This document shows, in pieces, positions 10,120 through 64,000 of a stretch of 64,000 nt of DNA. The position numbers and the translations under genes are program-made. This DNA is from Craspedostauros australis (Eukaryota; Bacillariophyta; Bacillariophyceae; Mastogloiales; Achnanthaceae), in contig JAMXDE010000010.1 in the NCBI GenBank assembly GCA_026770025.1, forward strand, positions 1,736,001 through 1,800,000, given 5' to 3'. Position 1 is the stretch's first letter; each line of letters begins with the position of its first letter. Under the pieces are notes generated by a model. It was given only the letters and a program-made list of their open reading frames with translations. It searched no databases and was not told the DNA's origin.

Positions 10120-11105
10120 GCTGGCAAACAGCTCCTCTCGACTTCAGATGATCGCCATCGCCGCAGCCATCGCTGTTGGTTTCGTGCAGATCGGACGGCG
10201 CAGCCACTCTAAAGAGTATTGGCTATTGGCTATTGGGTTTAATGGTATGGTGGTATGGTAGTATTATAGTATGGCAGCGTGAGAATGAATCCTCTCGAGA
10301 TTCGTGTGATGAGAAGAATCACAGGATGGCGATGATACCGCTGCCGCTCCGGATGTTGGAAAGAATTGGCAATAGTGCAGTTCGGGACGCTCCCGGAGGC
10401 GGACGTTGTGGCGCTGCCACAAGATCTTTGGTTTCGTTCTTGGCCGATCCCAGGAACAACATCGCCGTCGTGGAGGTTGTTTCTGCTGAAAGAGAAGCGC
10501 GATGAAACAGCCATGTCGTCATTTCAATGATTTCATCCCTGATGGCGCGTTCGACAAAGCGCATAGGGTTCGCAAACATAAGTAACACGACCAACAACCG
10601 AACGATACGTTGAGTCGATGCTCCACGTTCAACATGCCAACGACACAAAATGTACGTGTTCAACAGAAGAAGTCGGAAGCAGTGCAACATGACGTGGGTG
10701 ATCGGGCACGAAACCAAACAAGAACAAGAATGAAGAAACGCTGTGCCCTGCATACCATCAGCAGTCGTCACACCCAGCAATCACATCATCGCCCCGTTGT
10801 TTGCATCATCTTTGGAACAAGAGAGCACCAAGAAGAGCTTCTCCGCTTGCCTTCCTCAACTTTATCGAGTAGGCCGTACTAGACTCACACATCTATTCGC
10901 TCACATGCGTGACAAACAGAGAAACAGTGGACCAAGCACAACATCGGAGCCTGCTGAGGCAGCAGCGCTCGTCTCACAAAGATAAGGAACAGTAGGAACA
11001 GAAGCAATCGAAGCAAGAAAGTGTAAGACCATCATCCGGAGCAACACAGACATCCACAGCCACACTCCGCCAACACCAATAGAATAGGTCGCACCCAGCC
11101 ACACA
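10120..11105. promoter_or_regulatory. Upstream region of two divergent genes
   Basis: A 986-bp gap between divergent starts. It begins with a low-complexity TATGGTGGTATGG-type run near 10238-10277. A minus-strand frame at 10319-10780 is open but has no convincing start and no recognisable domain, so it is not called. Confidence 0.5.
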
Positions 11106-14703: not shown

Positions 14704-17700
14704 ATGACCACAATTGCTGAGCACAAGCACAAGGACGCGACCTCCATTCCTGAATTCGAGAGCGCTCGAACCAACATGCAAATCGACAAGGTGGGAGACA
14801 ATGCGCACGGTCCCGAAGATCTGAGTCTATCCCATGATGCCTCCTCCATCGTCAGTGACCTGGATTCGCACCAAGCGGAGCTTCCCTTCGACCAGGTTGG
14901 TCTGATCGGCAGGAGCAAGGAGCTCAGGTTGCTTCGGCATGCATTCAACAAGACTTTCATGGGGACAGCCAAACGTAGCGGTACGTCTCGCGATGCCAAA
15001 GAACCCAACATCTGTGACATCAGCGGTGACAGCAGCATCGGCAAGAGCCTGGATTCTGCAGAGTTTGAAACGGATGATCCGAAGAGCAACCGTAGCATCG
15101 AAAATGACCACAGCAGCGCTTTGCTGCCAGCCGTCCCACCCTCGAGAAGGACGCTCGTGCTCATACCGGGGCACTCGGGCAGTGGAAAGACGGCGCTTGC
15201 CATGCAAGTGAAACAATTCGGGTCTGCCCAAGACACCACCAAACGGCAACCACCCTTCCATGGTTTCTTCGCATGTGGCAAATGCGAGATCTCCGAAATG
15301 AATGCGGAACAACCGTACGCCGGCATCAAATCGGCCTTGATGGATCTGTGCAATCAGATCCTCTGCTTGCCAAGGGACGAGCAGCAGACGGATTTCTTGG
15401 TCACCGTACCGCCGTCGAAGATGGTCAAGAAAGCGGCATCAATGACCGCATCAGAATCCACCGCGGCCTCGTCGTCTTCCGGATCCTCGGCTGCATCGGT
15501 GTCGTCATCGTCGTCATCTCCATCGTCGTTACCAACAGCGAACGTGGCAAATGCAAGGTCTGATGGAGACACGGATCCTTCCTCGCCGCCAGACACCGCG
15601 AACGACCCGCGGCGGCTCTCCATTCTTCGGGAAAAGCTGAAACAAGGAATGACACGAGGCGAGATTCTCGCGCTGTCCAATGTCATCCCCGAACTTCCCC
15701 AAGTCGTTTACGGCGTCGACTTCCTGGAAGTGATCGGCGATTCTGTCAGCACTGGCGCCTCCGCCAAGCAAGTGAGTGACGAATCCTGCGCCATGAGCGT
15801 ATCGACCACGTTCTCAATGAGACAACACAAGGCCAGACCGTGGACCGAGCGCATCGGATACCGCGCCCACGGCGACAGGCTCAAGTTCGCCCTCCAGAAG
15901 CTGATCCAGACTGTGTGCAGCTACTGCCCCCTGGTCTTCGTCGTTGATGATCTGCAGTGGGCGGACAAGGCGTCGCTGGATATTCTCAAATCATGGATGT
16001 TCGACACCCAGAATTCGTCCCTGATGGTGATTGGATGCTACAGATCCAACCTCCTTGAGGAAAATGATTCCCTCAAGGCCACCCTGACGACTCTCGAAGA
16101 ATCCAAGCGAGAGAGGTCGTTGCGGATCGTCAACCTCCCCATCCAAGACCTGGAACTCCATCACATAAATGAGATGCTGTGTCGTTTGCTGGGCTCTCAA
16201 CCATCGAACGCATCCAACACGTTGGATGTCACCGACCAAAGCGTTGGCGGCCACTGCAAGGTCGTGGAAGCTCTTGCCGATGTTGTGCATAAGAAGACAG
16301 GAGGCAACCCTTTGTTCATTCAACGATTCCTGCAATCGTTGGTGCATGACAAGTTGCTGAGATACAACGCCTCGTCGTTCTCGCCAGCACGAACACCAGC
16401 ATCAACATCGAAATCAACATCGAAATCAACAGCGGCACCTGCATGGAAGTGGACATGGGACGATGACGAAATGAAAGCCAGGTCGCCAACCGCCACCACC
16501 GTCCTCACCATCATGAAGAACAAGTTGAAGCAGGTCACGAATGCATGCCAGATCCTCCCCATTGCGGCATGCTTGGGTGCGTCGTTTTCATACTCGACGA
16601 TCTCTATTGTCATGCGCGGCCTCTCGATCCATTCGGCTCATTCGGCCTTCGTGCAGGAGCTGTTCGGAATCGATCGATTCGTTTCGACCAAAGACATCGG
16701 CAAGATGCTGAGAGCATGCGAGCGCGAAGGCCTGCTGGAGAAATCACAAGGCCGTGCAGCTTCTGCGGACGAACGCAACCAGCTGTCTTCGATCACGGAA
16801 TCCAGCAACCTGCAAAGGAAGAAGGCCAGAGGTGGCTCCAAGAAATCCATCATCTACAATTTCAGCCATGACAAGGTCCAAGAAGCGGCTCTGGATTTGG
16901 TGGAGGAAAAGGAGCAGCTTTCAGAGCTCAAGTACCGTGTTGGCGAGATCCTGCTGTTCGGCCTCCCGGAGGAGGAGCTCGATCAGAAGATCTTCATGGT
17001 CACCAACCTCGTCAACTCCAGACTTGATCTCGTGCCTGACGTCAACAAAGGCAACCGCGGCAGGCGCGTGACGATGCTCAATTTCCATGCCGGCACCAAG
17101 GCCGTCAGCTGCTCGGCGTTCCAGCTGGCGTCCATCTACTTCAAGCATTCCATCGATCTCCTCCCCAACAACCACTGGGACGTGATGAGCGACGAGACTT
17201 TGGAGATCTACAGCGCCGCGGCCGAGTGTGCGTTTGTCCTATCAAATCTTGACCAGGCTCGCAGGTACTGCACCGTCATCACGGAATCCAAATGCGATAC
17301 GCTGCTCAAGATCGATGCCTACCAAACCCTCATCGACGTGGCGATGGCTGAGGTCCAAAAAGACACGCAGGAGGCAAGCGCCGTGGGTATCTGCATGGAC
17401 GTTCTCTCCCAGCTGGGGTGCAAGCTTCCGAAACCGGGGTTCCAGCGGATGTTCCACAGCGCCATTGGTTTGATCAAGCTGAAGCACACAGTTTCCAAGA
17501 TCACTCCAAAGGTGATCAATGATCTTCGCGTCATCGACAACGAGAAGGAGGATGCCATTTTACGAATATTGGGGAAACTGACCAAGGTCTGCTACTTCTT
17601 TGATAAAAAGTCCATCACATGCGTAGTGCTGCAGATCATGCGTCGAACTCTCAAGTACGGCGTATCTGAGCACTCTCCCTCGGCTTTCCTCATCCTGAGC

Positions 17701-18725
17701 GTCATGACGGAGTTCGGTTTTGGCAACGCTAAGACCAAGCAGATCCTGGGACAGAGGGCGCTCGATTTGATGGAGAAGATGGACAATCCGTCCACGGCGA
17801 CTAGGATTATTTTCAACAATTACTCGTTGGTCCAGCACTGGAAGCGCCCTCTCGAGGACATGAGGCAGCCATTCCTAGACACGTACCGCATGGGGATGTC
17901 CATCGGCGACGTCGACACCGCAGCATGGAGTGTCGCGGTGTACATCGGAGTCGGCTTTGCCACCGGAACGCCATTGGACCAGATCGATGCCGACTGCGCG
18001 ACGTACTCTAGGGTCTTGCTCGATTTCCACCAGAGCGTACAATACGCATTCTTCATCACCTTTTGGCAGCAGATCCTCAACCTTCGCGGTGCGTCCAAGC
18101 ATCGCATCTTGCTCATCGGCGACGCCTTCGACGAGAGCACCATCACCGCCGGTGGTGATAATGCGACGCAAGGGCTCTACTACAGAGCAACGATGATCTC
18201 AAAAAGGCACTTTGCTACTACTTTGGGAAATACGAAGAAGGCGCCAAACTGTCGGCACCCCACATCGATCTAGTCATGAAAGACTATCCAGGCTCGTATT
18301 CGGTGCCTCCGGTCGTATTCCGGACCGGACTCTGTTGCTTTGTGGCCACACAATCGAAGAAGGGCAACCGCCTTTATCGCAGGACGGCTCAGAAATGCCG
18401 GAAGCAACTGAAGGCATGGAGCAAGCAGGGGCATCCCAACTGCCCGCACTACATCATGCTCCTGGATGCCGAACACAAGTGGCTGCACGGCAACCTCAAG
18501 GCCGCCACAGAACTCTTCACCCGGGCCATTCAAAGTGCTTCCGAGCGTGGGTACATCAATGATCAAGCACTCGCGAATGAGCGGCTGGGAGATTGCTGGA
18601 TGGAACGTGGCCGGGATGATGACGCGAGGTCTCCATACGAAGAGTCCATTCGCTTGTATCAACAATGGGGAGCAACGAGAAAGGTCGAGGATCTGAAGGA
18701 AAAGGTGGATCAGATCTTTCAATGA
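14704..18725 (+). pseudogene. STAND/AAA_16 ATPase, copy A, frameshifted near the C-terminus
   Basis: Same gene as the intact copy at 26,702. It starts at the equivalent ATG (MTTIAEHKHK); an in-frame ATG at 14,653 lies in the extra TA-rich repeat and is not shared. The reading frame keeps Walker A (GHSGSGKTALA), Walker B (LVFVVDDLQWAD) and most of the helical-repeat region, then loses one base near 18,210 (CTCAAAAAGG where copy B has CTCAAAAATGG). It runs 22 foreign codons to a stop ending at 18,273, giving 1189 aa. The lost 158-codon C-terminus is still readable in the next frame at 18,276-18,725 and is nearly identical to copy B, so the break is very recent. It may be expressed as a truncated protein; a sequencing or assembly error in the A-run is the main alternative. 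The Ser-rich linker is ~6 residues shorter than in copy B. Confidence 0.85.
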
Positions 18726-25626: not shown

Positions 25627-26701
25627 AGTACGGCAGAGTCGTTCAATTTCTTCACTTGTGGCTCCATCGAACTTTCATTTTAGCGTGCCATACGCTGTGT
25701 TGGGAATCGCATCAGCACGTGCATGAGGTCACGGACGGTTCTTCGGCATTTGGGTCGACGCGGCTTCTTGATTGTTGTGCCCTTCGTGTTATTCTGGACA
25801 TAGGTATGCAGGAATGAGGGTTCGCCATTCCTCCACATCACGGTACTTGTGCCTGTGACCAATGCCAGTTCGCAGTTATCTCATGTGAACGACTTTTTAC
25901 ACCACGAACACGGCACAAAACAGCAAAATTGTGTGGAGAGGCTCAATTCCTGCTCGTATCCATGACAACCATTGCTCTTTCGCCATTTTGCTCCTGTTTG
26001 GTGTTGCGATTTTCTGGAGTCGATCCTGTTTTGGTGTCGCCAGCCTTCCTGTCATCTGCGTTGGCGGCAACCACAAGGAGGCCATCCATGTCGTCTGTTG
26101 TTTGCAAAATAGTTATGGAGTAGATCGTGTCTGTGCTCTCCAACGATGCATTTGGACGGTCAACAGGTAATGGGGCAAATTGGGATCACATGGAAAGAGG
26201 TTAAAGCCGGGCCGCTAGGAGGCGGAAGGAACTTTGTTCAGAAGGGAAGCAATCATCACGATGGAGGCGAGCGGAATCAACTCAGCCCGCTGGGGTGGAA
26301 CGCCCGGGCTGCGCTATCTGCCCACGCGACCGATCACCATCGCGGCTCCAAAACGCTACGCGATGGAGCGAAGGTCTCGCACACCAACCGCCAAGGGCAC
26401 AAAGTGGGAGCACAGGTGGCAAAAACACCGCGGTTTCCATCTGCCGGGCAGCCAAGGGACACACCAGCGTCGTTTGCCGATCCGGCTCCTCCGTTTCCAC
26501 AACTCCAACCAACCCACACGACCGTACGTACGAGTAGAAGCTGCTCCGCGCGTGCTCGTATCCCACCACAATTCTCAACATCGAGACCAAAACAGGACCA
26601 TCAGGAGAGACAGGCAAACCACAGCAGCAACATTTGTCTGGACCTAAGAGTACGCACGTATCATACTATTGTAATACAGCACGAGCGCAGGCGCCATCAA
26701 C

Positions 26702-29700
26702 ATGACCACAATTGCTGAGCACAAGCACAAGGACGCGACCTCCATTCCTGAATTCGAGAGCGCTCGAACCAACATGCAAATCGACAAGGCGGTTTACAAT
26801 GCGCACGGTCCCGAAGATCCGAGTCTATCCCATGATGCCTCCTCCATCGTCAGTGACCTGGACTCGCACCAAGCGGAGCTTCCCTTCGATCAGGTTGGCC
26901 TGATCGGCAGGAGCAAGGAGCTCAGGTTGCTTCGGCATGCATTCAACAAGACTTTCATGGGGACAGCCCAACGTAGCGATGCGTCTCGCGATGCCAAAGA
27001 ACCCAACAGCTGTGACATCAGCGGTGACAGCAGCATCGGCAAGAGCCTGGATTCTGCAGAGTTTGAAGCGGATGCTCCGAAGAGCAACGGCAGCATCGAA
27101 AACGACCACAGCAGCGCTGTGCTGCCAACCGTCCCACCCTCGAGAAGGACGCTCGTGCTCATACCGGGGCACTCGGGCAGTGGAAAGACGGCGCTTGCCA
27201 TGCAAGTGAAACAATTCGGGTATGCCCAAGACACCACCAAGCGGCAACCACCCTTCCATGGTTTCTTCGCATGTGGCAAATGCGAGATCTCCGAAATGAA
27301 TGCGGAACAACCGTACGCCGGCATCAAATCGGCCTTGAGGGATCTGTGCAATCAGATCCTCTGCTTGCCAAGGGACGAGCAGCAGACTGATTTCTTGAGC
27401 ACCGCACCATTGTCGAAGATGGTCAAGAAAGCGGCATCAATGACCGTATCAGAATCCACCGCGGCTTCGTCGTCTTCCGTATCCTCGTCTGCATCGGTGT
27501 CATCATCGTCGTCATCTCCAACGCCGTCACCGTTGCTGTTGCCGTCACCAACAGCGAATGAGGCGAATGCAAGGTCTGATGGAGAAACGGGTCCTTCCTC
27601 GCCACCAGAAGCCGTGAACGACCCGCGTCGGCTCTCCATTCTTCGGGAGAAGCTGAAACAAGGAATGACACGAGGCGAGATTCTCGCGCTGTCCAATGTC
27701 ATCCCCGAACTTCCTCAAGTCGTTTACGGCGTCGACTTCCTGGAAGTGGTCGGCGATTCTGTCAGCGCCGGCACCTCCGCCAAGCAAGTGAGTGACGAAT
27801 CCTGCGCCATGAGCGTATCGACCGCATTCTCGATGAGACAGCACAAGACCAGACCGTGGACCGAGCGCATCGGATACCGCGCCCACGGCGACAGGCTCAA
27901 GTTCGCCCTCCAGAAGCTGATCCAGATTGTGTGCAGCTACCGCCCCCTGGTCTTCGTCGTCGATGATCTGCAGTGGGCGGACAAGGCGTCGCTGGATATT
28001 CTCAAATCATGGATGTTCGACACCCAGAATTCGTCCCTGATGGTGATTGGATGCTACAGATCCAACCTCCTTGAGGAAAATGATTCCCTCAAGGCCACCC
28101 TGACGACTCTCGAAGAATCCAAGCGAGAGAGGTCGTTGCGGATCGTCAACCTCCCCATCCAAGACCTGGAGCTCCATCACATCAATGAGATGCTGTGTCG
28201 TTTGCTGGGTTCTCAATCATCGAACGCATCCAACACGCTGGATGTCACCGACCACAGTGTTGGCGGCCACTGCAAGGTCGTGGAAGCTCTTGCCGATGTT
28301 GTGCATAAGAAGACAGGAGGCAACCCCTTGTTCATTCAACGATTCCTGCAATCGTTGGTGCATGACAAGTTGCTGAGATACAACGCCTCGTCGTTCTCGC
28401 CAGCACGAACACCAGCATCAACATCGAAATCAACATCGAAATCAACAGCGGCACCTGCATGGAAGTGGACATGGGACGATGACGAAATGAAAGCCAGGTC
28501 GCCAACCGCCACCACCGTCCTCACCATCATGAAGAACAAGTTGAAGCAGGTCACGAATGCATGCCAGATCCTCCCCATTGCGGCATGCTTGGGTGCGTCG
28601 TTTTCATACTCGACGATCTCTATTGTCATGCGCGGCCTCTCGATCCATTCGGCTCATTCGGCCTTCGTGCAGGAGCTGTTCGGAATCGATCGATTCGTTT
28701 CGACCAAAGACATCGGCAAGATGCTGAGAGCATGCGAGCGCGAAGGCCTGCTGGAGAAATCACAAGGCCGTGCAGCTTCTGCGGACGAACGCAACCAGCT
28801 GTCTTCGATCACGGAATCCAGCAACCTGCAAAGGAAGAAGGCCAGAGGTGGCTCCAAGAAATCCATCATCTACAATTTCAGCCATGACAAGGTCCAAGAA
28901 GCGGCTCTGGATTTGGTGGAGGAAAAGGAGCAGCTTTCAGAGCTCAAGTACCGTGTCGGCGAGATCCTGCTGTTCGGCCTCCCGGAGGAGGAGCTCGATC
29001 AGAAGATCTTCATGGTCACCAACCTCGTCAACTCCAGACTTGATCTCGTGCCTGACGTCAACAAAGGCAACCGCGGCAGGCGCGTGACGATGCTCAATTT
29101 CCATGCCGGCACCAAGGCCGTCAGCTGCTCGGCGTTCCAGCTGGCGTCCATCTACTTCAAGCATTCCATCGATCTCCTCCCCAACAACCACTGGGACGTG
29201 ATGAGCGACGAGACTTTGGAGATCTACAGCGCCGCGGCCGAGTGTGCGTTTGTCCTATCAAATCTTGACCAGGCTCGCAGGTACTGCACCGTCATCACGG
29301 AATCCAAATGCGATACGCTGCTCAAGATCGATGCCTACCAAACCCTCATCGACGTGGCGATGGCTGAGGTCCAAAAAGACACGCAGGAGGCAAGCGCCGT
29401 GGGTATCTGCATGGACGTTCTCTCCCAGCTGGGGTGCAAGCTTCCGAAACCGGGGTTCCAGCGGATGTTCCACAGCGCCATTGGTTTGATCAAGCTGAAG
29501 CACACAGTTTCCAAGATCACTCCAAAGGTGATCAATGATCTTCGCGTCATCGACAACGAGAAGGAGGATGCCATTTTACGAATATTGGGGAAACTGACCA
29601 AGGTCTGCTACTTCTTTGATAAAAAGTCCGCCGTATGCGTGATGCTGCAGATCATGCGTCGAACTCTCAAGTACGGCGTATCTGAGCACTCTCCCTCAGC

Positions 29701-30742
29701 TTTCCTCACCCTGAGCGTCATGACGGAGTTCGGTTTTGGCAACGCTAAGACCAAGCAGATCCTGGGACAGAGGGCGCTCGATTTGATGGAGAAGATGGAC
29801 AATCCGTCCACGGCGACTAGGATTATTTTCAACAATTACTCGTTGGTCCAGCACTGGAAGCGCCCTCTCGAGGACATGAGGCAGCCATTCCTAGACACGT
29901 ACCGCATGGGGATGTCTACCGGTGACGTCGACACCGCAGCATGGAGTGTCGCGGTGTACATCGGAGTCGGCTTTGCCACCGGAACGCCATTGGACCAGAT
30001 CGATGCCGACTGCGCGACGTACTCTAGGGTCTTGCTCGATTTCCACCAGAGCGTACAATACGCATTCTTCATCATCTCTTGGCAACAGGTCCTCAACCTT
30101 CGCGGTGCATCCATGCACCGCACCTTGCTCATCGGCGACGCCTTCGACGAGAGCACCATCACCGCCGGTGGCGATAATGCGACGCAAGGGCTCTACTACA
30201 GAGCAACGATGACCTCAAAAATGGCGCTTTGCAGCTACTTTGGGAAATACGAAGAAGGCGCCAAACTGTTGGCACCCCACATCGATCTAGTCATGAAAGA
30301 CTATCCGAGCTCGCATTCGGTGCCTCCGGTCGTATTCCTGACCGGACTCTGTTGCTTGGTGGCCACACAATCGAAGAAGGGCAACCGCCTTTATCGCAGG
30401 ACTGCTCAGAAATGCCGGAAGCAACTGAAGGCATGGAGCAAGCAGGGGCATCCCAACTGCCCGCACTACATCATGCTCCTGGATGCCGAACACAAGTGGC
30501 TGCACGGCAACCTCAAGGCCGCCACAGAACTCTTCACTCAGGCCATTCAAAGTGCTTCCGAGCGTGGGTACATCAATGATCAAGCACTCGCGAATGAGCG
30601 GCTGGGAGATTGCTGGATGGAACGTGGCCGGGATGATGACGCGAGGTCTCCATACGAAGAGTCCATTCGCTTGTATCAACAATGGGGAGCAACGAGAAAG
30701 GTCGAGGATCTGAAGGAAAAGGTGGATCAGATCTTTCAATGA
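26702..30742 (+). CDS. Giant STAND-type AAA_16 ATPase with helical repeats, copy B (intact)
   Basis: A 1346-aa single-exon protein. Order: disordered N-terminus (1-60); VGLIGRSKELRLLRHAF (~65-81), the classic start of AAA_16/ORC-like NTPases; Walker A PGHSGSGKTAL near 155-164; a Ser-rich linker; Walker B LVFVVDDLQWAD near 415-426; a winged-helix-like region with GGNPLFIQRFLQSL; FSHDKVQEAALDLV; then ~500 residues of TPR-like helical repeats to the C-terminus. This matches the predicted-ATPase module (COG3899) found in bacterial and algal multi-domain kinases and cyclases, but no kinase, GAF or cyclase domain is attached here. It is likely a signal-transduction or scaffold ATPase in the cytosol; partner unknown. 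It is the unbroken member of the duplicated pair. The transposon lies ~1.1 kb upstream and could affect its promoter. Confidence 0.88.
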   Translation: MTTIAEHKHKDATSIPEFESARTNMQIDKAVYNAHGPEDPSLSHDASSIVSDLDSHQAELPFDQVGLIGRSKELRLLRHAFNKTFMGTAQRSDASRDAKEPNSCDISGDSSIGKSLDSAEFEADAPKSNGSIENDHSSAVLPTVPPSRRTLVLIPGHSGSGKTALAMQVKQFGYAQDTTKRQPPFHGFFACGKCEISEMNAEQPYAGIKSALRDLCNQILCLPRDEQQTDFLSTAPLSKMVKKAASMTVSESTAASSSSVSSSASVSSSSSSPTPSPLLLPSPTANEANARSDGETGPSSPPEAVNDPRRLSILREKLKQGMTRGEILALSNVIPELPQVVYGVDFLEVVGDSVSAGTSAKQVSDESCAMSVSTAFSMRQHKTRPWTERIGYRAHGDRLKFALQKLIQIVCSYRPLVFVVDDLQWADKASLDILKSWMFDTQNSSLMVIGCYRSNLLEENDSLKATLTTLEESKRERSLRIVNLPIQDLELHHINEMLCRLLGSQSSNASNTLDVTDHSVGGHCKVVEALADVVHKKTGGNPLFIQRFLQSLVHDKLLRYNASSFSPARTPASTSKSTSKSTAAPAWKWTWDDDEMKARSPTATTVLTIMKNKLKQVTNACQILPIAACLGASFSYSTISIVMRGLSIHSAHSAFVQELFGIDRFVSTKDIGKMLRACEREGLLEKSQGRAASADERNQLSSITESSNLQRKKARGGSKKSIIYNFSHDKVQEAALDLVEEKEQLSELKYRVGEILLFGLPEEELDQKIFMVTNLVNSRLDLVPDVNKGNRGRRVTMLNFHAGTKAVSCSAFQLASIYFKHSIDLLPNNHWDVMSDETLEIYSAAAECAFVLSNLDQARRYCTVITESKCDTLLKIDAYQTLIDVAMAEVQKDTQEASAVGICMDVLSQLGCKLPKPGFQRMFHSAIGLIKLKHTVSKITPKVINDLRVIDNEKEDAILRILGKLTKVCYFFDKKSAVCVMLQIMRRTLKYGVSEHSPSAFLTLSVMTEFGFGNAKTKQILGQRALDLMEKMDNPSTATRIIFNNYSLVQHWKRPLEDMRQPFLDTYRMGMSTGDVDTAAWSVAVYIGVGFATGTPLDQIDADCATYSRVLLDFHQSVQYAFFIISWQQVLNLRGASMHRTLLIGDAFDESTITAGGDNATQGLYYRATMTSKMALCSYFGKYEEGAKLLAPHIDLVMKDYPSSHSVPPVVFLTGLCCLVATQSKKGNRLYRRTAQKCRKQLKAWSKQGHPNCPHYIMLLDAEHKWLHGNLKAATELFTQAIQSASERGYINDQALANERLGDCWMERGRDDDARSPYEESIRLYQQWGATRKVEDLKEKVDQIFQ

Positions 30743-51647: not shown

Positions 51648-54600
51648 AACCACAGTGGTGCTCCCATCACATGGACAAAAGGAACCGCCCGTGCCGAAGA
51701 AAGATTCGTTGGCACTCCCGTTGTAGTGATTCGTGGAAATTCGTGGGATTAGCCGCTGCTATCCAGGAAGCGGAGTGTTGTCTCTGGTGTGTTTGTGTGA
51801 CGTGGGACATCAATGAAACATCTGTTTTGTTGACACCTCCACTTCACGATTGAAAGATTCTCTTTGCGGGACGGTGGCTGATCGCATCGGCGTGTCTCGG
51901 CTGCAATGGCCGATCCTCCTCGCTCATTGTGGAGTACGTGGCGTCGCAACGGCAATACCTTGCGTGGCCTGGTTTGGTTCTTCTTGGCAATTGCCTGTGT
52001 GGGAACAAGGGATGCTGCGTATGCCCATGGACCACTCTGACAAAGATGTGATGGAAGACCATCTCCGGCCGTTTGGTCGGTGGACTCTCCATCGGCCTTT
52101 CTTCGCGCCAACTCCCGTTTCGTCCGACCTGCTCTCAGAATGGCATGATGTGTGATACGGCGCATGCACAGCACGTATGGTATGCTGAGCAACCGACTAC
52201 AAATACCTACAGGTACGTGCCCCTTGTTGTTGTGTGATGAGTGACGAGCGGAGCGAAGGAGTGAAGGAATGAGGGAATGGATCATCATCATCGCCATCGT
52301 TGCCATTGACACATCGCTGTGTTCTTTCAGAAGCCAGAACAGCAACCGATGACAAAGCCAAGATGAAATTGAGAAAGAGGACGTTGGAGTGGAATGGAGA
52401 CGTATTGGCAGAGAGGATCGGATCGGCGCATGTGACAGAGCTGCGTTATTAATAGACTGCGCTGTTTTGTTGTCGAGTTGCAGCTGGTGGTACCAACAAT
52501 GGATCAGTGGTTGTTGCAGCCCTGACTTCTTTACCCAGAGAGTGGTTGGATGCTCGTGTGTCACAATACCGCCGGAGGCGTGTTTCGGGTTCATCTTTGT
52601 GGCATCAACGCATACTATTAGCAACAACGGAGAAAGGAGTATCCCGTGCCCAAGGAAGTTCGGCGGAGCAAACCTATCAGTCGACAGCCGAGGCGGTTGG
52701 ATCTGCACGAACTGCAGATGGATTCTGCCTCACACTTTCAAGCAACGACGATGTCACGCAAACGAAGACATCTCGACGATCACATCAGTCTACTATACGC
52801 AATGCCATTGCGTGTGGCATATGACTATTATAGATCGTCCTCTACACCGTTCCACGACGAGCTATGGCATATAGTTCTACCAGAGACTCGTAGTATAAGT
52901 GTATGATGCTTACCACACCTCTCCTCCTGTTCCTCCACATGAACGAATGCATCGTCATCGTACTCGTGCAACCTACGATCGACAAGGCATCGCTCCGCAT
53001 CTATCATGTGGCCGCTTGCAAATACTCGCGCCCAAACCACGAGCCACAAACACTACGATCTATTTTATGTATAATACATTGCGAACTGCGCTGCCGATGA
53101 TGACATCGGTTCCTGACGCAAATCGTTTGTATGGCAGGACCTATCATCCCGGAAAGTCCGTGGTCCGGGATTTACGGCCTCTCTGGTCGTGAGCGTCGTG
53201 AGTGCGGACAAGGAAGGGGACGTTTCTCCTTGCCCAGCACCACGTCAACACGCCAGTATGACATCGGCAACGGGGAAAAAGAGTCCAAGGGGGAGATGAA
53301 CATCGATGACCGCAGAATGGGCGGAAAAGAAACGGGCATGGATTGCTGGACAGATCGAAACCCCGGAAACGGGAGGAGCAGTTGCATACTGTACATGGTG
53401 CTATACAAATGCAAACATAGACGCGTGGTATTGTGTTGACGATGGCGAGACAGTCCACGAGGAGGAACAAGATGACGATGGCGCTTGCACATTGTTCGTT
53501 CCATCCTCGGTGGTGATGCACACGTCAACGCAAAGTGGAGCGAGATGTGCAGGAGCAGCATTGGTCGAAACCTTCTCTCGTCCAGACCAGAACCAATGCC
53601 GTTCTCTCCCATCGTACCCGTACTCGATGGGTATTCCTTCGCCGTTCGCATCTGCAGCCGTCTCGCCGCATGGCTGCCGATGCGATCAGCCCCCTTTCGA
53701 CACACGCTTCCTTCACAATTTGCGTCCTTTGATGTCATCTGCTGCCTGCGATGGTGCGAAGCACGACATCACCTCTGAGGTTTTTTTCGATACGGACAAG
53801 AGGCGCATCGGAGGACCGTATTCCTCTCTGGTCGCCACCTTCATCAATTCCTTCACAACGGTGTCTCAGATTGGGACTACGCGCATACCAAAGGAAGAAG
53901 AAAGTAAAACACGCCTCCCAATCTGCAGACGTTCCTTCTTGTGAGTTGTATGCACGCGTTTTAGCCATGGTGATGTGTGATGTGCCCATGATGTGTGCAT
54001 ACTCTGTGCGTACACCAACCCTTTGTTCCCAGAAAGTGGCGAGCCGTTTTGCTCTGAATCTGTGGCGGTGCTCCTTTGGGGCGGACGAGATCCGTGAACT
54101 TTGCCTCATGACATCGCACATTCGCAGCTTCTTGCCCGTAGTACTGCTGGGGATGCAAACGCCAACACAGTTGACAAGCCCAATCCCGGGATAGGGGCAA
54201 AACTGTACCCTTGGACACCGAAAGTTGTGGAATGACGCATGGAGAGTATCGTGCTCCCTTGACCCCTTGGGCATCGCTGCGGCAATGCCCGAAAGAAAGA
54301 GCGAACATGAGAACGATGCGCGCGGGATCGCGCAGATCCAGCGGCTGAATACGCGCAGAGATGGTGCACGATGCGCTTACGACCCCGGTGAGCGAAAAGG
54401 TTACGCCCAAGTTGGCGTCGCATCTGCGATCCTGATATAAACTTTAAGAGGCCTTAACATATACTTCCTTTAGATGTATGTAGAGGAACTACATTCTTAA
54501 AACGTATATTGGATGGTTTAGGAGGTCATGAAGGTACCTATTCTGTCGTGTTGTATCGTGCATTAGATTCAGTTTTTGGGATGCGACATGGATGCGACTC

Positions 54601-57444
54601 ATCACTGACACCAAATTTGATGTTGGCGAGCGGCGAAAATGTTCTTTTTTCCTCTCGCAGACGGGCTCACAGCAAGACGCTTGAAGCTGAACTCAGACGT
54701 GTCTACAGTCGTGCGAACGGGCACACATTTCGGTTGTTTTTGGCCCAATTGATTGCACGCAGTTTCTCGGAATGGACTCGGAACAGGTGTGGAGGAGCAA
54801 AACTGCACCAGCATGCGATGGTACGTACGTGCACTGCGCTGTGCCATACGACATTAGGATGGGATGAAGGTGCAGAGCTATCAGCATATTCCACCAGGTA
54901 TAGTGAGATGCTACTTTTGCTGATGCTGATGCTGGTAGTACTTCGTGAGCGCGGGAACTGTGATCACTGCCGGGTTCGTTGCACCATGATCTCGCGCGTT
55001 CCACGTGTGGTCTCTCATTTCATACAAGGGGCACGAGCCTCTGTGACAAGATAGGTGCAGGAGGATAAGGGTCCCGTTCTGCAAAATAAAGTCAGCTGGC
55101 GACTACGGCACATTCCTGATGTACGCTGCTGTGCTCTGCTGTGCTCTTCTCGAGTTGCTGAGTTGCCGAGTCGCCGCGCGTTGCGCCTCTCAGACAGGAT
55201 TTCGGTGTCTCGTTGTTGTTGTGGAAGTTTGTGAGTTCATTTTGCTCTTTTCTTGATCACGTTTCATTCCTTTTCCTGGTTCTTTTCCATGTCGCACCCA
55301 GAGAATCGCTCTGTACTTTTTCAGATGTCGGTGGACAGACAGACGTGAGATGTGGTGTTTTGGTAGAAACATGCGTGGAACAAAACCAAATCAGATACTG
55401 CGCTCGCGAATTCTGGACTGCTTTGTGCCTGTTGATACACATTCCCCACGGAATCGTTTCTGGAGCGCCACAAAACTGCGGAGTGGCTCTGCGACAACAG
55501 AATGATGTACCGCACTGAACACAAGAAGGAGAGTACAGCAGGAGATCATGTAATACATCTGTTTTTATCGTACATGCCCACATTTGTATTATTTGCACGT
55601 CGGAGGCTGATCAGGTTAGATCTTGTGATGGATCGGTTGACTTCCGCAGAATCAACATTCCACCGTCAAATCCAACCGTCAACGATGGTGTTGCATCCAC
55701 AAGGCGCGCTTGGTGGTCAGCGGCGCAGGCAGACTTGGAGCGCGAGGATTGTCAGCATTGTTACCCTCATGAGATAGGTATGACGATCAGTTCCATGGTG
55801 CATTATCGTCTCCAGAGTTGTTGTGGATCAAAGACGAAGAACAACGATGTGCTGACCATCTGGACGCCATATTGTGGATTGAGTTTAGGGTAATTGTATT
55901 GATTTGACAGCAGCGAGGCATAGAATAACAATTCTTCTTGGCGCTGCGGCAATACGATGACAATTTTGCTCCACGCGAAGACATCGATACCATCGTGTGT
56001 CTTTTTTTTTTTTGCGCCCATGGATTTGGTATCATCACTCGCTCTCGCTGATCGTCATCATTCTCCGTTGTCTGCTGGGGCCGTTCGTGGCAGTCTGGGT
56101 GGTCACAGAGCAAGCAACAGCCGGCGCCAACCATGAATGGCACTGGCGGTTGATGATCGGTGAACGCTGTTCCACAGGCGGATGCGATTTGTTGTCTCCC
56201 CCAGCGGTTGTTGGATTAGCGATAGACGAGAAGCTGGTGGTGATCATCTGTACGGAAAGCGTCAGGGCAGATGGGTGGGATGTTCTGAGCAATGAAACAA
56301 TAGTGCCATACTAATGGACGAGGTAGTGTGGATGAGGCTGAGAGCTTGTTCCGATTTCCTCGCAAGCACAAACATTTTCGAATTGATGGCGTGTACTCGT
56401 CCTCTCGCCGCGATTGACTTGTGTCCGCGTGAGAGCAAAATGTGAGCCACTGCTCTGCGCCGAGAACTGGTGTCCATTTGCAAGAGAACCGCGCATCCCG
56501 ATTCACAAGCCGAGCGACAAATCGCGCACACTCCAGAATACATTCGTGACTTTCCGATACGATACGACACGACATGACACGACATGCTACTGATACCAGT
56601 ACCATACGTATTGGATAGATTGACAAATGGATGGATGGAGCGAGCTGTGATCATCCCAAGGATACCGTATCGACACACTTGGCGACGAACCATAGTCGCC
56701 GTATTGGTACCATCGCAGGCAGATACGCGGAGCAAACGCCGGTACGTGCAGCCACAAATTGCTACACGCAACTGTGAAAGCAGCCTGGCGCAAGCCACTG
56801 ATTAGCTCATGGGCAGAAGGCAGCAGTTTTGCTCTTGGAGTCAGTCCATTTGTACCAGACAATGTTACCAGCATCATGGAGATTACATTGTACTTGGAGC
56901 AGAGCATTTGGGATCGATCATTCAAGAATCTTACTCCCTTCGGCATACCGCTTGCTGTCAGCAGCGATGGTGTCCACGTAGCATTCTGTGGCAATGCTGC
57001 AGGTGCCCACCTTGTGCCTACTCTAGCAATTCACTGATTAGATTCTTATCATTGAAAGATAGGTATGGTCATACACTAGACAGTGTACGACAGCAGCATC
57101 ATACCACTCTGGCTTGAACAGGAGTGTGAGAGCCACAACCTGGAGTTGTGCCGTGCCAACTCCTTGTTTGCCTTGGGTCCTCCGTATCCAATTTCTGGTT
57201 CCCCGATTTTCTCCCAAATCAATCTACTGAATTTTTCAATAGTGGTACACGATGTTGTTGCGTGGGTAGCGCATTTGCAAACATTACTGCATTCATCCTT
57301 TGCACGATCCTCTCCGTTGGATGAACTCCATACCTTGATTTCAACGCTGCCGACATACCTACCCACCAATACGATGCATGCGATTCACCCTGTGCTATTT
57401 TTAGTTCGGCACGTTGTGTTGCCGGATTCTCGTTTTCTCTCGTG

Positions 57445-57845
57445 TTATTTCTCACGATAAAGTTGCAATATCTCCCCCTTTCCGCTGCGTTCACGGACTC
57501 CATCGGTTTCGACAGCCACATGCCCGGACTGCCGTCGTCTTCTTCGTCTTGTCGTCTACTTTGTAGTCGTTCAATTTTATTTCGCAATTCCGCCTGGTGC
57601 TATTCCTATGCCAACAAAAGCATACCTATGTCGGGGACCCCGTGTTATTCTTCGCACTAACATTTTTGCACCCTCACCTGAACGTTTCCATCACGCATTC
57701 TATCAGTTTCGACGTCTGGAGGGACGAACCACTCTCATCTCCTCCGCCTCATTGTTTACTTTGTAGTCGTCCAATTTTTATTTCGCAATTCCGTCTGGTG
57801 CTATGTCTATCCGACCAAATCCATACCCATGCAAATTCCTCTCCG
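57445..57845. repeat. 200-bp tandem duplication, two diverged copies
   Basis: The block around TTTGTAGTCGTTCAATTTTA (57,560) recurs at 57,760 as TTTGTAGTCGTCCAATTTTT, both followed by TTTCGCAATTCCG.CTGGTGCTAT and ending near CATACC.ATG. A TCAGTTTCGAC/TCGGTTTCGAC word also repeats 200 bp apart. Copies differ at roughly one base in five, so the duplication is old. No coding role seen. Confidence 0.75.
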
Positions 57846-59016
57846 TCGTCATGCACCTTCTGGAGGGCATCGTCAGTGTCATGCACGATTGCCGCGATTG
57901 AGGTGAGTCTATGCCATTCCAGTTGCATCAACCATTCATATTGCTCAATACTGTATGGTGTTTGGCTGATGGGAAAGGGGAGGTTGGGCCTGAGCGATCT
58001 ACACGCTCCGAATTGATGTTGCTCGCAATCCTCTTGCGAGGGCTCCGGACTCCGGCAGACAGTTTGTTGACTTTCAATTGCTCGCGGATCCGTGTGGTGT
58101 TGGCCTTTTCGAATTCCACCAATGGAAGGAGATGAACATGACATTCATACATCAGGTTGCGCAGGTTTGCGGATGACGCGGATGCTGGAGATGGTGCGGG
58201 GCATGATTTCCTACCGCTTGGCATCACGAGGCCAACGACTCAAGCAACAGAATTGACGATCAGCGACGGCAGTGGACAAATTGCAGCGGCTCCCGAAATA
58301 TGTGAAACTACGGACACGCTCCTGCACCATTGTGAGCGCTGCGCTTTTGTGGTTCCATCATGGTTCGAAGATCGACTTGGCGTCGTCTACTTGTCTCATA
58401 CTCGACAATACACTGCATGCCTTGGTCGATGCCCGATCCAGTTTTGTTGTCTTGATCGAAAATGTGGGTGTGAAATTGGCGCACTTCGGTCGAATCTGAT
58501 TGGATGGGAATCGTCAATGGTTAAGTGCAAATGTCGTTTGTTGCTCACAAGGACAAACTACATTTAACAAACGAACAACGAAGAGCCAAAGTATGTCCGA
58601 AAATCAAGAAAACAACACGACGAGATCACCAATGATGGATTCGTGTACCAACGATCCAGCGTCCCACACCAACCGACAACAACAGGCAGGACAGAACGTC
58701 TGCCGCAGTGAACTCACATCACACATCACACACCCAACGACTATGCTCTTTCCCATTCACTGCGGATGCTTCAATCGTCGCATCTGAGACGATCGGCGCC
58801 GACAGCCAACACAACTCCAAATGGCAGCCAACGAAGAACAGATCGATTGTATTCTACCGTGTTGCGTTCGGCCACCAGGGAAGTAATCATTACACACTCG
58901 ATCGTCTCTCACGATGCCAAGGCAAATGATGAGAAATTGAGGCTACAATCGATGAGAATAAAAAGTAAAAATCAATAGAGAATGAATGGACAGACGGATT
59001 GATGTAGCACTTGTTG

Positions 59017-59034
59017 CTCTCTCTCTCTCTCTCT
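59017..59034. repeat. (CT)9 microsatellite
   Basis: Uninterrupted CT dinucleotides ~180 bp upstream of the large ORF; could be part of its leader or promoter. Confidence 0.9.
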
Positions 59035-59217
59035 TGCACTTGCTCTCTCGTTGTGTTGGCGCTGCGTCACACTCACTCATTCGCCAAAATAAATATCGCA
59101 TACAGTTGCACATACATTCTCCAATCACAACCACGTATGCACCAATGAGCGACCGTTGAGCTGTTGCCGCCGATCTCCGCACAAACACAGCGCCCATGCT
59201 GTTGTGAACAAATAGGC

Positions 59218-62200
59218 ATGTGCTGCTTTGGCTTGTTGAGTGTTGTTGTCGCTGTCTGCTGCATTCTCCTATCTGCAATGTCAGCACAACACTCAGTGCT
59301 CCCCAACATCGAGATCATTCAGAATCATCCGTGCCTTCCCCCCACTCGCATCGTCCATCAGCCACCAAGCCACTACCGCTATCGCATCATGACCCATCCA
59401 CGTGAGGATTCAAGCATCGATCCCAATCCATCCCAATCAAAGGTGCAACGTCGAACAGCAAATGCTGGCACATCCATCCATCACCAACCACCTCATGGGC
59501 ACTACGCATCGTACCAATACTCTGCACCTGTCGGGCCGAACGACCATGGCAGCATCCACAGCCCTCCTCTCCCCATGGTTGCGAATCATCATGTCCCTCC
59601 CAATGCACAACCTCCTTCCTTTTGCATCCCCAGCTACATCAGTACAGGCATGGGTGGTCTACCATACTCAACATTCCACCCCAACAACAGCATAGCAACT
59701 CCCACTTCCAACTACATGGGGCCCAACCGTTTTGGCAATATGCCTTGCAAGCAATGTCTGACCCTGTTCTGCAGTCACTGCAGTAGGCCACCATTTTGCC
59801 CAAACTGTGCGTCATCCATCGGCGGAGGTGCACGTCACGCAGGTGTGAATGCCTTTGTGCCACAGGCAAATTCGTTCTCCGTTGGGACTCGTAGTGATGC
59901 TCCTGTGCCCACACGTCCCAAGCGCAAATCATCAGCAAACAGACGCAGGACACCACATCAACAGGCAGGAGATGATGTGCTCGCGCGACGAGATGTCGCT
60001 GTGTCTATGGAAGAGCGCGAGCCGGATTGTGCAAGTATGAGCAGTGCCGATGACACCGATGTCGAGTACGTTCCAGAAGCAGAGGATGCTGTAAATCGAA
60101 AAGGACTACTCACATCTATCTTCAAATCAGCAGGCATTGACATTCGAGCAATTACGAAATTCCCTGTGAGTGGATTCGGAAGCATCCCACCAAGGGGAGC
60201 CAAGCATCGCTGGAGTGTCATCAAACGAATCTGGAAAGAGCTGTGTAATGGAACATCCGAGCATGCAATCTTCCCTGGCGCGAAACCCCCACCTCAACTT
60301 TGGGAAGCCATGACCTTCGTGCGACATCGCAAACAGCTCCCTCCTGTGTTGCTGGAGCAGACTCTCTGTCATTTAGCCTTCTGGGGGAATAGGGACCTGT
60401 CACTGACTGCTCGTGCGGTTTTGGCAATGACCTGTGACTCCAGGCGCTGCACCCGAATCCTGGCTGTGCACTACAGCAGCCTGTCGAAAGGAGACAAGGC
60501 AAAGGTCATGCCGCAACGCCGAACCATGTCTCGTGCAGCACACAGGAGACTGTCGCACGCTGGTGATGCGATCCTTGCTGGAGGCCAGTTCCCACACACA
60601 GACTACAAGTACCGTGTCAAGGAATCTAGCCTCCAGGGAGTGATCTCATTTCTCACCTCCATGTTCCAGTACCGACCAGGCATCACAAGGAGTGTGAAGT
60701 TGGCTGGTGTTCTGTTCCCAGACCTGCCCATCTTCATTCGCGGATCATCATCTATCGCAGAACTCTTTGCGAAGTACAAGAACGCAACAGATGACCCAGT
60801 TGGTATGCCTGCCTTCAGGAGTATCCTGACATTGCTCACGCGACGTGGCAAGTGTCAAACGGGCCTGTCCTCCTTCTACACAGACACTCTGACTGTATTC
60901 ATGCACTTCCAACACATGATCAGGAGAGTCATGGAACTGCTTCGGACTCAGAACAAGGAACATCAAGACAAAGAGCTCGTGTCTGAGCTTCTCAACGAGG
61001 CACAGGCCATCATCACGGACAGCGATTCTGTTCTTTCATTTGCAAAATGGGAATATGCAAACAAGCACATCCAGGTGAAGCCAACCACGGATACTCTACA
61101 TTCCGCAGAGTTTGCACTGACAAATGGCTCCCTCCCATTTGTGAACCAAGCATGCAAGCAATGTGCAGATGTCATGACATTCTTCCTGATTCGCGTTCGC
61201 AACTTCATGCGAACTGCCACCAACAACATCACTGGCAACACGTTCGAATTGGATCGCATGGCTGCAGCAATTAACCTGTGTGATGACGCACTGCGCCAGT
61301 ACATGGCCCACCAAGTGAGACGAAAGGTACAAGCACAGAAGATCAAGGAGGAAAAGGAGCGCCTCAAGGACCACCCAGATCGCATCATTGCCGTGCTCGA
61401 TCACAAGCAACGCATCCTCCCAACGGAGAATCAGGAAGCTCAGAAAGCGTTCTTTGGCAAGAACGGAATGTCTCTCCTTGGTGTCATGACAATCCAATAC
61501 AAGAATGGCAAGTTCGAGTATCGATTCATTGACATGGTGATGAAGGGGCGGAACAAGCAGGATCATGTCCAAGTTGCTGGTGCGATCAAGATTCTTCATT
61601 CCACCGTGCTTCCGAAGCTTCACAAGGGGGTCAAAGAGGTTGTATTCCAGAGTGACAATGCCAGTTGCTTTGCAAGTCCAGCACTGATGAGGTACATGCA
61701 TGGACTGAACCAAGGAGAGGTTGAAGTTGAATACAAGATGCCAGAGAAGAAGAAGAAGCGGAAGACGACAGCCAAGAACAAGGGCAAGCACAAGGACAAG
61801 GCTAAATCTCCGCCTGCCCCCAAAATCAACACAGAACAGTCATCTTATCATGACGCGAAGGCTGCATCATCCACGAAGGCAAAAGCACAGGAAGACACCG
61901 GAACCCGCCCTCCCAAACCGCGACTCCAAATCATCCAATGGCTGTACACTGAGGCACAAGCTGGCAAGAGTGCTTTGGACGGACACTTCGGTTTCGTCTC
62001 ACGTCAACTCAGGTTGTTTGTGGATAGTGCCAGGGATGCAAAGATTGCCACCGAAGGCGATATTTTCAAAGTGCTACAAGCTGCCAACATCAAGGGGACA
62101 ACAACACTTCTGTTGGATCTGAGCAGATTGGGACATGCCATCATCTGTGGTGTGGACGGAAAGGAAAAAGCATTCGCGACCAACCGAGTTTCCGTTCGCG

Positions 62201-63036
62201 CCACCCATCAAATTGATCTGATCGATGACAAAATCCAGGTCACAGCATCATCGGGCTTGACACATCCAGAGACTATCACTCAGGGCAAGATCGACAAGTT
62301 CGACATTCTCCATCTCGATGTCACTTGCAATGATGAGGACATCACCGAGGTCCCACCGGCATTCGTGATGGATCCACAGAATATCCGCGGCTCACAACCG
62401 ACTGAACGACGACACACATCAACAACAAACAAGAGCACCAACAAGACCGACATGTTCAAGCGCATTCTCACTTCGCGTGTTCTGGAACCAGCAGCGGCAG
62501 CAGCAGAAACGGCAAATTGTGAACGAAATGCCACAGTGGACTTCCCTCAATCCATCAGGCAGGGATGGGCGATCTGTCACCCAGACAAAGCCACCTCACG
62601 AAAGAAGGATCCATCAGCATCTCCAGCAACCAAGGTACCGTCCATGTCGAAACAAGTGGCGCAGATTGTGTGCGATGCTGCGATTGCTTGCAGGAGCCCA
62701 GACACGAGGAGGAGCGCTCATGTGCTTCATGAAGAGCTGATGGCCGGGCCTTTCTTGCTTGATTGGGAGCAGAGGATCAAGGTGGACATCACATACCTCA
62801 AATGCTTCCTGGCAGCTCCTGACGGTCGAGCGGAGAGATACCTGGAGAACAATGGCTTCTTGGATGACGAGGAATGTGAAGAGCACCTGAACGAGATGCA
62901 TGAACTGCGGATCATGGCATCCAAGGAGAACACTCAAAGCGAAGAAGCGCACGAAGAGCAGGTTCTGGATGATCGCCCATACGACGGGCAGGATGCTGAT
63001 GTGATTGCTGGCAATCTGCTGCCTTCCGATGATTGA
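59218..63036 (+). CDS. Intronless 1272-aa DDE/RNase H-like transposase-type protein, family unknown
   Basis: First ATG in the frame is 59,218; later ATGs at 59,278 (MSAQHS) and 59,386 (MTHPRED) are possible and would drop a hydrophobic N-terminus odd for a nuclear protein. Residues ~177-199 form a Cys cluster (CKQCLTLFCSHC then PFCPNC), probably zinc-binding. Next are a basic stretch RPKRKSSANRRR, a long helical region (~300-700), then candidate acidic motifs: VLDHKQRILP with D728, KAFFGKNGMSLLGVMTI, VVFQSDNASCF with D813, a Lys-rich insert (~840-905), and IIQWLYTEAQAGKSALDGHF with E912/D921. This order (D; SDNA; EAQ.GK..D) recalls a group of uncharacterised animal and protist ORFs reading FGKRG.SWH, SDNAGCYH and FSEPQ.GK..CDR. 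That resemblance is from memory. No inverted repeats flank it, so it may be domesticated or its ends lie elsewhere. Confidence 0.75.
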   Translation: MCCFGLLSVVVAVCCILLSAMSAQHSVLPNIEIIQNHPCLPPTRIVHQPPSHYRYRIMTHPREDSSIDPNPSQSKVQRRTANAGTSIHHQPPHGHYASYQYSAPVGPNDHGSIHSPPLPMVANHHVPPNAQPPSFCIPSYISTGMGGLPYSTFHPNNSIATPTSNYMGPNRFGNMPCKQCLTLFCSHCSRPPFCPNCASSIGGGARHAGVNAFVPQANSFSVGTRSDAPVPTRPKRKSSANRRRTPHQQAGDDVLARRDVAVSMEEREPDCASMSSADDTDVEYVPEAEDAVNRKGLLTSIFKSAGIDIRAITKFPVSGFGSIPPRGAKHRWSVIKRIWKELCNGTSEHAIFPGAKPPPQLWEAMTFVRHRKQLPPVLLEQTLCHLAFWGNRDLSLTARAVLAMTCDSRRCTRILAVHYSSLSKGDKAKVMPQRRTMSRAAHRRLSHAGDAILAGGQFPHTDYKYRVKESSLQGVISFLTSMFQYRPGITRSVKLAGVLFPDLPIFIRGSSSIAELFAKYKNATDDPVGMPAFRSILTLLTRRGKCQTGLSSFYTDTLTVFMHFQHMIRRVMELLRTQNKEHQDKELVSELLNEAQAIITDSDSVLSFAKWEYANKHIQVKPTTDTLHSAEFALTNGSLPFVNQACKQCADVMTFFLIRVRNFMRTATNNITGNTFELDRMAAAINLCDDALRQYMAHQVRRKVQAQKIKEEKERLKDHPDRIIAVLDHKQRILPTENQEAQKAFFGKNGMSLLGVMTIQYKNGKFEYRFIDMVMKGRNKQDHVQVAGAIKILHSTVLPKLHKGVKEVVFQSDNASCFASPALMRYMHGLNQGEVEVEYKMPEKKKKRKTTAKNKGKHKDKAKSPPAPKINTEQSSYHDAKAASSTKAKAQEDTGTRPPKPRLQIIQWLYTEAQAGKSALDGHFGFVSRQLRLFVDSARDAKIATEGDIFKVLQAANIKGTTTLLLDLSRLGHAIICGVDGKEKAFATNRVSVRATHQIDLIDDKIQVTASSGLTHPETITQGKIDKFDILHLDVTCNDEDITEVPPAFVMDPQNIRGSQPTERRHTSTTNKSTNKTDMFKRILTSRVLEPAAAAAETANCERNATVDFPQSIRQGWAICHPDKATSRKKDPSASPATKVPSMSKQVAQIVCDAAIACRSPDTRRSAHVLHEELMAGPFLLDWEQRIKVDITYLKCFLAAPDGRAERYLENNGFLDDEECEEHLNEMHELRIMASKENTQSEEAHEEQVLDDRPYDGQDADVIAGNLLPSDD

Positions 63037-63637
63037 TCCTGACGACAACCGCAAGTAAGCCAACACTACTCACATGCATTTCATTGATATAGTATTAGTC
63101 TATGTAACATTGATATCATTAACTCTCATTGTGACGATATCAACTGCAGTAGCCGCATGTCCACAGGGATTCTGAGAGGAAGTTGTTGTTGGTATGTATA
63201 GAGTGGTTCTAATATTATTGGTTGCTACGATCTTGACATGCACTATGGAACCACCATCGCCGTGCATCTACTCAATTTGCACATGTGCTTGCTATGTATG
63301 GTATGATACACGATTAGACCACGGCGTGCATCAATCCAAACCCCGTCCATTACGCGTCAGCTGAATTTTTGGCATTCTTTGACAACGTCATGAACATGAA
63401 AGCGTACGCCAGCGCAGTCATGAAGGCGTCCTGCTTTGGCGTTGCATGCAAATCGTTCCCGCCCTCCACATTCTCATCGTATTATGACAGCCATCGTTTT
63501 CCCTTAACCAGTCTCCACAGCTTCTTCACCATCTTGCGTGCATGCGCTGGGTTATCCGATCATCGTTCGTGCGAAAGCGAATAGGATTGGTAGAAAATTT
63601 GCATCCTATTTGATGTTGTGGTACGGCGAGATCTACT
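63037..63637. other. Downstream region of the large ORF
   Basis: 600 bp, AT-rich around 63,080-63,130 (GATATAGTATTAG, TTGATATCATTAAC). No inverted repeat matching the 5' side of the ORF was found. No gene seen. Confidence 0.4.
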
Positions 63638-63973
63638 TCATGAACACCTCCAATCGGACGCGTCCGGATCCAAATTCGTCGCGCATATCGGTGCATCGTC
63701 CGAATGCAGATCTTTGACCGCTTGATGACATGGGTCGACTGCCCAACGCACCGCGCTGAACAGTTCAGGAGCATCACGAAAGCATCCGCGCCACCAATCC
63801 TCCGCCGGATCTGCCGTGGATGACCAATGTTTTGGCTTTTCATACTTCGACGAAATCAAATGCTCAGCAGCTGCGATGAAGTCTTCGTGTGGTTTGGTAC
63901 GCTTTTCACGCACCGCGGCCTCCAGCAAGACGATATTGCAGCAATTCAGACACATGGTTGGAGTGGAGTCCAT
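63638..63973 (-). CDS. Small protein, unknown, near window edge
   Basis: 111 aa from an ATG at 63,973 (MDSTPTMCLNCCNIVLLEAA). It continues with FIAAAEHLISSKYEKPKHWS, then DPAEDWWRGCFRDAPELFSA. Trp- and acidic-rich with a helical look, and codons are host-like. It could be a complete small gene or the last exon of a gene extending beyond the window. No family recognised. Confidence 0.4.
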   Translation of the reverse strand: MDSTPTMCLNCCNIVLLEAAVREKRTKPHEDFIAAAEHLISSKYEKPKHWSSTADPAEDWWRGCFRDAPELFSAVRWAVDPCHQAVKDLHSDDAPICATNLDPDASDWRCS

Positions 63974-64000
63974 TATTCGGGATGAGAGTGTGTGCGTATA

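Follow-up and report, generated by a model that had tools for sequence, protein, structure and literature searches.

A 13.3-kb DNA transposon with a candidate DDE-like transposase in the diatom Craspedostauros australis

We analyzed a 64,000-nucleotide stretch of the genome of the diatom Craspedostauros australis (assembly GCA_026770025.1, contig JAMXDE010000010.1, positions 1,736,001 to 1,800,000; the window). The window contains a long intronless open reading frame (ORF) that an earlier note, made from the letters of the window, had tentatively attributed to an undescribed DDE transposase family or a domesticated one. We found that this ORF lies in a multicopy element with terminal inverted repeats (TIRs) and 4-bp target-site duplications (TSDs). 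The ORF very probably (probability approximately 0.88) encodes the transposase of a large, 13.3-kb cut-and-paste DNA transposon. We favor this reading because the element has TIRs, a fixed TSD and many copies, some of them inserted recently, and because the DDE-like core is constrained. The element has the general traits of TIR/DDE transposons: inverted repeats, a TSD of fixed length and three conserved acids.

Copies and ends of the element

We searched the genome (74.8 Mb in 90 contigs) with the protein encoded by the window ORF. At least 37 stretches matched (all E ≤1e-153; 69-100% identical), a lower bound (36 of 477 candidates were scored) in which some stretches are pieces of a single copy. 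DNA similarity among copies extended far beyond the ORF and then broke off sharply at both sides. The transposable unit is approximately 13.3 kb, rather than the 3.8-kb ORF. The full element is 13,280 bp, from 54381 to 67660, and its last 3,660 bp lie past the end of the window (Table 1). Coordinates above 64000 carry the window numbering on into L029, which is identical to the window's last 467 bases.

Every end that we read opens with GACCC, and the bases after GACCC vary by subfamily. The terminal bases of the element are GA..TC (that is, RR..YY). An origin as a long terminal repeat element is ruled out, as the ends are inverted rather than direct repeats.

We looked for TSDs in the window copy and 18 other copies for which both ends were fetched, and in six more chosen from a scan for the TIR of a sister subfamily (below). 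An exact 4-bp duplication was present in 18 of the first 19 and in all six of the others (24/25 overall). The duplicated sequences were TTAT (9), ATAA (7), TTAA (4), TTAC (2), GTAA (1) and ATAT (1). All 24 are TA-centered, and 23 read TTAN on one strand or the other (TTAN/NTAA). The idea that TA itself is the TSD, which came from the window alone, is ruled out by the 4-bp duplications.

The scan for the 27-base sister TIR (up to 3 mismatches) found 55 sites in the genome, compared to none for a reversed control. Among these sites were 23 inward-facing pairs, 15 with ends 12.9-14.3 kb apart and 8 with ends 20-46 kb apart. The 20-46-kb pairs look like nested insertions, and three long pairs (C29, C33 and C36) have matching TSDs. 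At three places (C2:3708404-3738120, C61:220287-271942 and C6:2664358-2691316), element ends are 27-52 kb apart, versus ~13 kb, yet the TSDs match. These copies also seem to hold nested insertions. At C59:54090-113730 (L076-L078), two element ends are separated by nothing but ATAA. The two outer flanks here match each other in inverted orientation, for which reason the C59 ends were left out of the TSD count, and the same flank is also found at C49 (L047). The arrangement is either a duplication that formed a palindrome or an error of assembly.

Near-identity is seen between some copies that occupy different sites. Copies C32 and C37 are 99.79% identical over 9,699 bp and have different TSDs (TTAC and TTAA). 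The window copy and C13 are 99.33% identical over 9,817 bp, and their right flanks are unlike. With differences as small as 0.2-0.7% between insertions at separate sites, the sequences indicate that the element moved recently.

The transposase and its conserved core

The ORF of 1272 codons was confirmed, and its frame is common to many copies. To examine selection, we used 16 sequences: the window ORF and those 15 of 20 fetched copies that have an ORF of >1180 aa. Translation probably starts at Met58 (position 59389) rather than at the first ATG, because residues 1-57 are poorly conserved whereas Met58 is kept in 16/16 sequences. The predicted protein would then be ~1215 aa.

We found that dN/dS against the window was 0.19-0.34. 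We also calculated pN/pS in blocks of 100 alignment columns for all pairs of the 16 sequences; the pairs are not independent, and the values are descriptive. In every block pS exceeded pN. Along the protein, pN/pS was 0.35-0.61 at residues 1-460, 0.20-0.21 at 461-660, 0.09 at 661-760, 0.07 at 761-858, 0.25 at 859-958 (the block with much of a Lys-rich insert), 0.09 at 959-1058, 0.44 at 1059-1153, 0.10 at 1154-1253 and 0.14 at 1254-1272. The contrast was strongest in the core (residues 661-858 and 959-1058; pN/pS 0.07-0.09), which points to strong purifying selection there.

More distant relatives are present in the same genome. With a 107-residue query around the third acidic motif, 150 matches were scored out of 306 candidates. 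Identity was 89-100% in 37 of them and 38-46% in 113, and many lie in open frames of 1180-1300 aa. Judged by the protein core, the family is part of a larger transposase group with at least 113 further matches. We aligned the window protein with four of the 113 distant matches (37-46% identical to it). D728, D813, E912 and D921 were invariant in 5/5 aligned proteins and in all 16 copies, and QSDNA-CFAS, TEAQ-GK and D-HF were likewise invariant in the five proteins. All five have 83-84 residues from the first to the second Asp. Either E912 or D921 probably serves as the third catalytic acid. From the second Asp to E912 the spacing was 35, 36, 80, 98 or 187 residues, with the two shortest in relatives L075 and L072. 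Because this distance varies from 35 to 187, the Lys-rich stretch (25% Lys at residues 837-905, between D813 and E912) is best read as an insertion into a core that resembles DD35E.

Much of what the earlier note had claimed about the protein is borne out. The acids, the Cys cluster and the Lys-rich insert are all where it had placed them. It had let its proposal depend in part on conservation of the acids among homologues, and they are conserved in all five proteins. It had also suggested that the ORF is young or under selection; the near-identical copies and the constrained core speak for both. The copies and conserved ends that it had suggested looking for were found.

In a crude Chou-Fasman plot, a predicted strand directly precedes each of D728, D813 and E912, and two strands lie between D728 and D813. 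This order, the one that RNase H folds should show, lends weak support to such a fold. We suggest the following mechanism. The Cys cluster (a possible zinc-binding module) and the N-terminal half of the protein would bind the inverted repeats, and an RNase H-fold domain, through two Asp plus either a Glu or another Asp, would free the element. This domain would then join the element to a TA-centered site cut with a 4-bp stagger, and gap filling by host repair would create the 4-bp duplication.

The ORF might instead be a host gene domesticated from a transposase, as the earlier note had allowed. An open frame under purifying selection is what such a gene would have. But the same ORF occurs in dozens of copies with TIRs and TSDs, and there are recent near-identical insertions. 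These features contradict the alternative, which we regard as extremely unlikely. The element looks like an autonomous TIR/DDE-type transposon rather than a domesticated gene.

The ORF might also be a passenger of an element that is moved in trans by another transposase recognizing the same ends. We found in-frame stops in 10 of the 37 matched stretches, so at least some copies would need help. However, the ORF is the sole frame of >250 aa in the window copy of the element, and its core, with the DDE-like acids, is among the most constrained parts. We consider this alternative quite improbable. The stops in the matched stretches are 11 TGA, 1 TAG and no TAA. The excess of TGA could reflect C-to-T decay at CpG, that is, cytosine methylation of the element.

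These stops are one of several observations that weigh against our reading of the ORF as the transposase of a cut-and-paste transposon. The case for transposition comes from genomic copies, not from an empty site, an excision product or an observed movement. The flanks of copy C13 are unlike (ATAA on the left, TTAA on the right; 1/25), and the piece on its left could come from a different insertion; 9 of the 55 sister-TIR sites are without a partner. The same Chou-Fasman plot lacks the helix that should follow the third acid, where it has mostly strand, and the RNase H fold of the core is inferred. In addition, the ORF showed no homology to a transposase in the libraries searched: no Pfam family matched it even at E 10, in agreement with the earlier note's failure to place it in a classic family. 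The four relatives had weak unrelated Pfam matches only. PHROG and NCBIfam gave weak matches only (best E 0.015 and 0.011, respectively), of unrelated or unknown function, and the Protein Data Bank (PDB) gave weak unrelated matches or none. The best PDB match of the ORF, ribosomal protein S27 at residues 167-203, was not significant (E 0.26).

Comparison with known superfamilies

We compared the element with known superfamilies (listed for Repbase in PMC4455052) by traits described in papers, not by transposase sequences. On these descriptions every superfamily tested fails at least one trait, with the exception of Sola as a whole. Novosib, Zator, Ginger, Merlin, P and hAT were compared via Pfam alone, with no match.

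Several superfamilies fit the element poorly. Target-site length differs from the 4 bp found here in PIF/Harbinger-ISL2EU-Spy (0-3 bp; PMC12730594), Academ (3 bp; PMC5199201) and KDZ (8 bp, stated for Zisupton only; PMC12730594). IS3EU, as described for fungal families, has a 6-bp TSD and TAYGG..CCRTA ends (PMC12730594), both unlike those of the element. The TTAA duplication of piggyBac (PMC5199201) was found in only 4 of 24 TSDs. In the CMCT group (EnSpm/CACTA, Plavaka and Transib) the ends are mostly CA..TG (PMC12730594), versus GA..TC here, and the C(2)C and H(3-4)H motifs between the second D and the E were each present in 0/5 proteins. Dada is described with no TIR, insertion in small-RNA genes, a 6-7 bp TSD and DxxH (PMC3706591), in contrast to a TIR, a 4-bp TSD and no conserved DxxH.

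A derived Kolobok-like lineage is improbable. Kolobok has a TTAA target, RR..YY termini and a C/DxxH motif, and is present in a diatom (PMC9587614). The motif, between the second D and the last E, is common to Kolobok, hAT, P, MuDR and Dada (PMC9587614). Our element is like Kolobok in its RR..YY termini and its T/A-rich 4-bp TSD, which is TTAA in four cases. It differs in that the other 20 of 24 TSDs are not TTAA, and in that C/DxxH was found in only one of the five aligned proteins, as a lone DKKH in the variable insert of L074; no invariant column fits the motif.

The element might also be a large Sola (Sola1, 2 or 3) that carries cargo and is either divergent or already catalogued, which we consider somewhat unlikely though the most serious alternative. 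Sola resembles the element, on description only, as a TIR DNA transposon with a 4-bp AT-rich TSD (in Sola2; PMC3627910) and a giant member with an accessory gene, a 21.5-kb Sola-1 of Ectocarpus in which that gene is on the strand opposite the transposase (PMC12477816). Sola is also listed in the diatom Cyclotella cryptica (PMC7466962). In contrast, the Sola2 elements described in PMC3627910 have AWWT, ATAT, AAAT or ATTT duplications and TIRs of 12-21 bp, versus the TTAN/NTAA duplications and the 42-bp TIR here. Only 1 of 24 TSDs (ATAT) fits the Sola2-type AWWT.

TTAN duplications have been described for orphan Fanzor1-bearing elements of insect viruses, which the authors left without a superfamily (PMC3627910). 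These are like our element in the 4-bp TTAN TSD and unlike it in having 13-bp TIRs and no known transposase. Fanzor was looked for only through general Pfam scans, with no dedicated search. By this analogy we can only guess at a connection, as a lead.

The portions of the literature searched did not name the element and gave no superfamily combining TTAN duplications with a known transposase. We found no relatives in viral contigs or in bacterial and archaeal genome contigs (searched by short near-exact words or by DNA pattern), nor in phages or plasmids by tblastn. This absence is weak evidence because the collections searched contain hardly any eukaryotes.

We tentatively suggest, at somewhat less than even odds, a new superfamily of eukaryotic DNA transposons. 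It would be characterized by a minimal D-83-D-35-E core with an optional Lys-rich insert, TA-centered 4-bp TSDs (mostly TTAN), GACCC ends in the subfamilies read, ~150 scored matched places in a single algal genome and the capture of a host gene with its introns. The proposal of an undescribed family is plausible; it is unproven, as the known families, Sola above all, were compared by description only.

The captured peptidase gene and other features of the window

The element carries a decayed prolyl-oligopeptidase gene. Peptidase_S9_N (Pfam) matched two of its seven pieces (6.9e-4 and 0.01, both below the curated cut-off), and a prolyl peptidase in the PDB matched at 1.2e-3. Reading the frames as found, without repair, we saw that the gene of the window copy does not stay in a single frame. 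It has a colinear counterpart at C12 (L071), with 83% DNA identity over 3.2 kb, including the non-coding gaps between exons, and no other part of the element was found in the 4.5 kb fetched there. The C12 gene is likely the donor or a close relative of the donor. A second peptidase gene, at C3 (L070), has ~53% protein identity. Because every one of the 20 fetched copies (L009-L028) has the peptidase gene in whole or in part, the gene was probably captured before the subfamilies arose. An ancestor would have taken up a genomic copy of the gene, introns included, and the gene would since have decayed as a passenger. Pack-MULE type and other gene-capturing transposons are similar in having a gene with introns copied inside a TIR element. 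Our element differs from them in encoding its own transposase, having no MULE match in Pfam, and making a 4-bp TSD; MuDR-type elements are described with a 9-bp TSD (PMC3627910).

In the left part of the element, nine ORFs gave nothing above the Pfam curated cut-off and one weak match (E 0.057). Two units of ~140 bp in the same part recur in many other element copies and are perhaps transposase-binding or promoter repeats.

Table 1. Features of the element and its transposase ORF, in window coordinates
Feature	Position	Strand	Details
Transposon, part in window	54381-64000	+	Cross-copy similarity ends sharply; TIR; TSD
Left TSD copy, TTAC	54377-54380		Right copy TTAC at 67661-67664, in L029
Left TIR, 42 bp	54381-54422	+	Partner 67619-67660 (L029), 40/42 identical
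Left 4.7 kb of element	54423-59148		9 ORFs checked against Pfam
Two copies of ~140-bp unit	57491-57630 and 57691-57831		~200 bp apart
Transposase ORF (probable)	59218-63036	+	1272 codons from first ATG; frame open from 59149
Cys cluster C177-C197	59746-59808	+	Six Cys, three CxxC pairs; invariant in 16/16 aligned sequences
D728, proposed first catalytic acid	61399-61401	+	Motif LDHKQ; closes a predicted strand
D813, proposed second catalytic acid	61654-61656	+	Motif QSDNASCFAS; closes a predicted strand
Variable Lys-rich stretch between second and third acids	61657-61950	+	98 residues in window protein
E912 (61951) and D921 (61978)	61951-61980	+	Motif TEAQAGKSALD; both invariant
Captured prolyl-oligopeptidase gene, decayed, introns kept	63239-64000, on to ~66608 past window	-	Pfam, PDB and C12 matches

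Other long frames lie elsewhere in the window. Two on the + strand, at 14602-18273 (1223 aa) and 26675-30742 (1355 aa), each contain an AAA_16 ATPase domain (Pfam E 2.6e-14 and 6.7e-16, respectively) and are perhaps related to each other. A frame at 11088-12782 (+) has a DUF6824 domain close to its C-terminal end (E 2.8e-14), in keeping with a diatom host. A 1280-aa frame at 1252-5094 on the - strand had no Pfam match at 0.001, and tblastn with the transposase was not significant there.

Our results suggest that transposases of this kind can escape annotation, because none of the five proteins met a transposase model in Pfam, PHROG or NCBIfam despite ~150 scored matches to the motif region in the genome. 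With a seed alignment and the GACCC/TTAN end rule, the group could be counted across algae and placed among the ~20 recognized superfamilies. The captured gene, whose likely donor lies elsewhere in this genome, would make DNA-level gene capture open to direct study. The near-identical copies suggest that the element has been active recently, and perhaps still is, in a protist.

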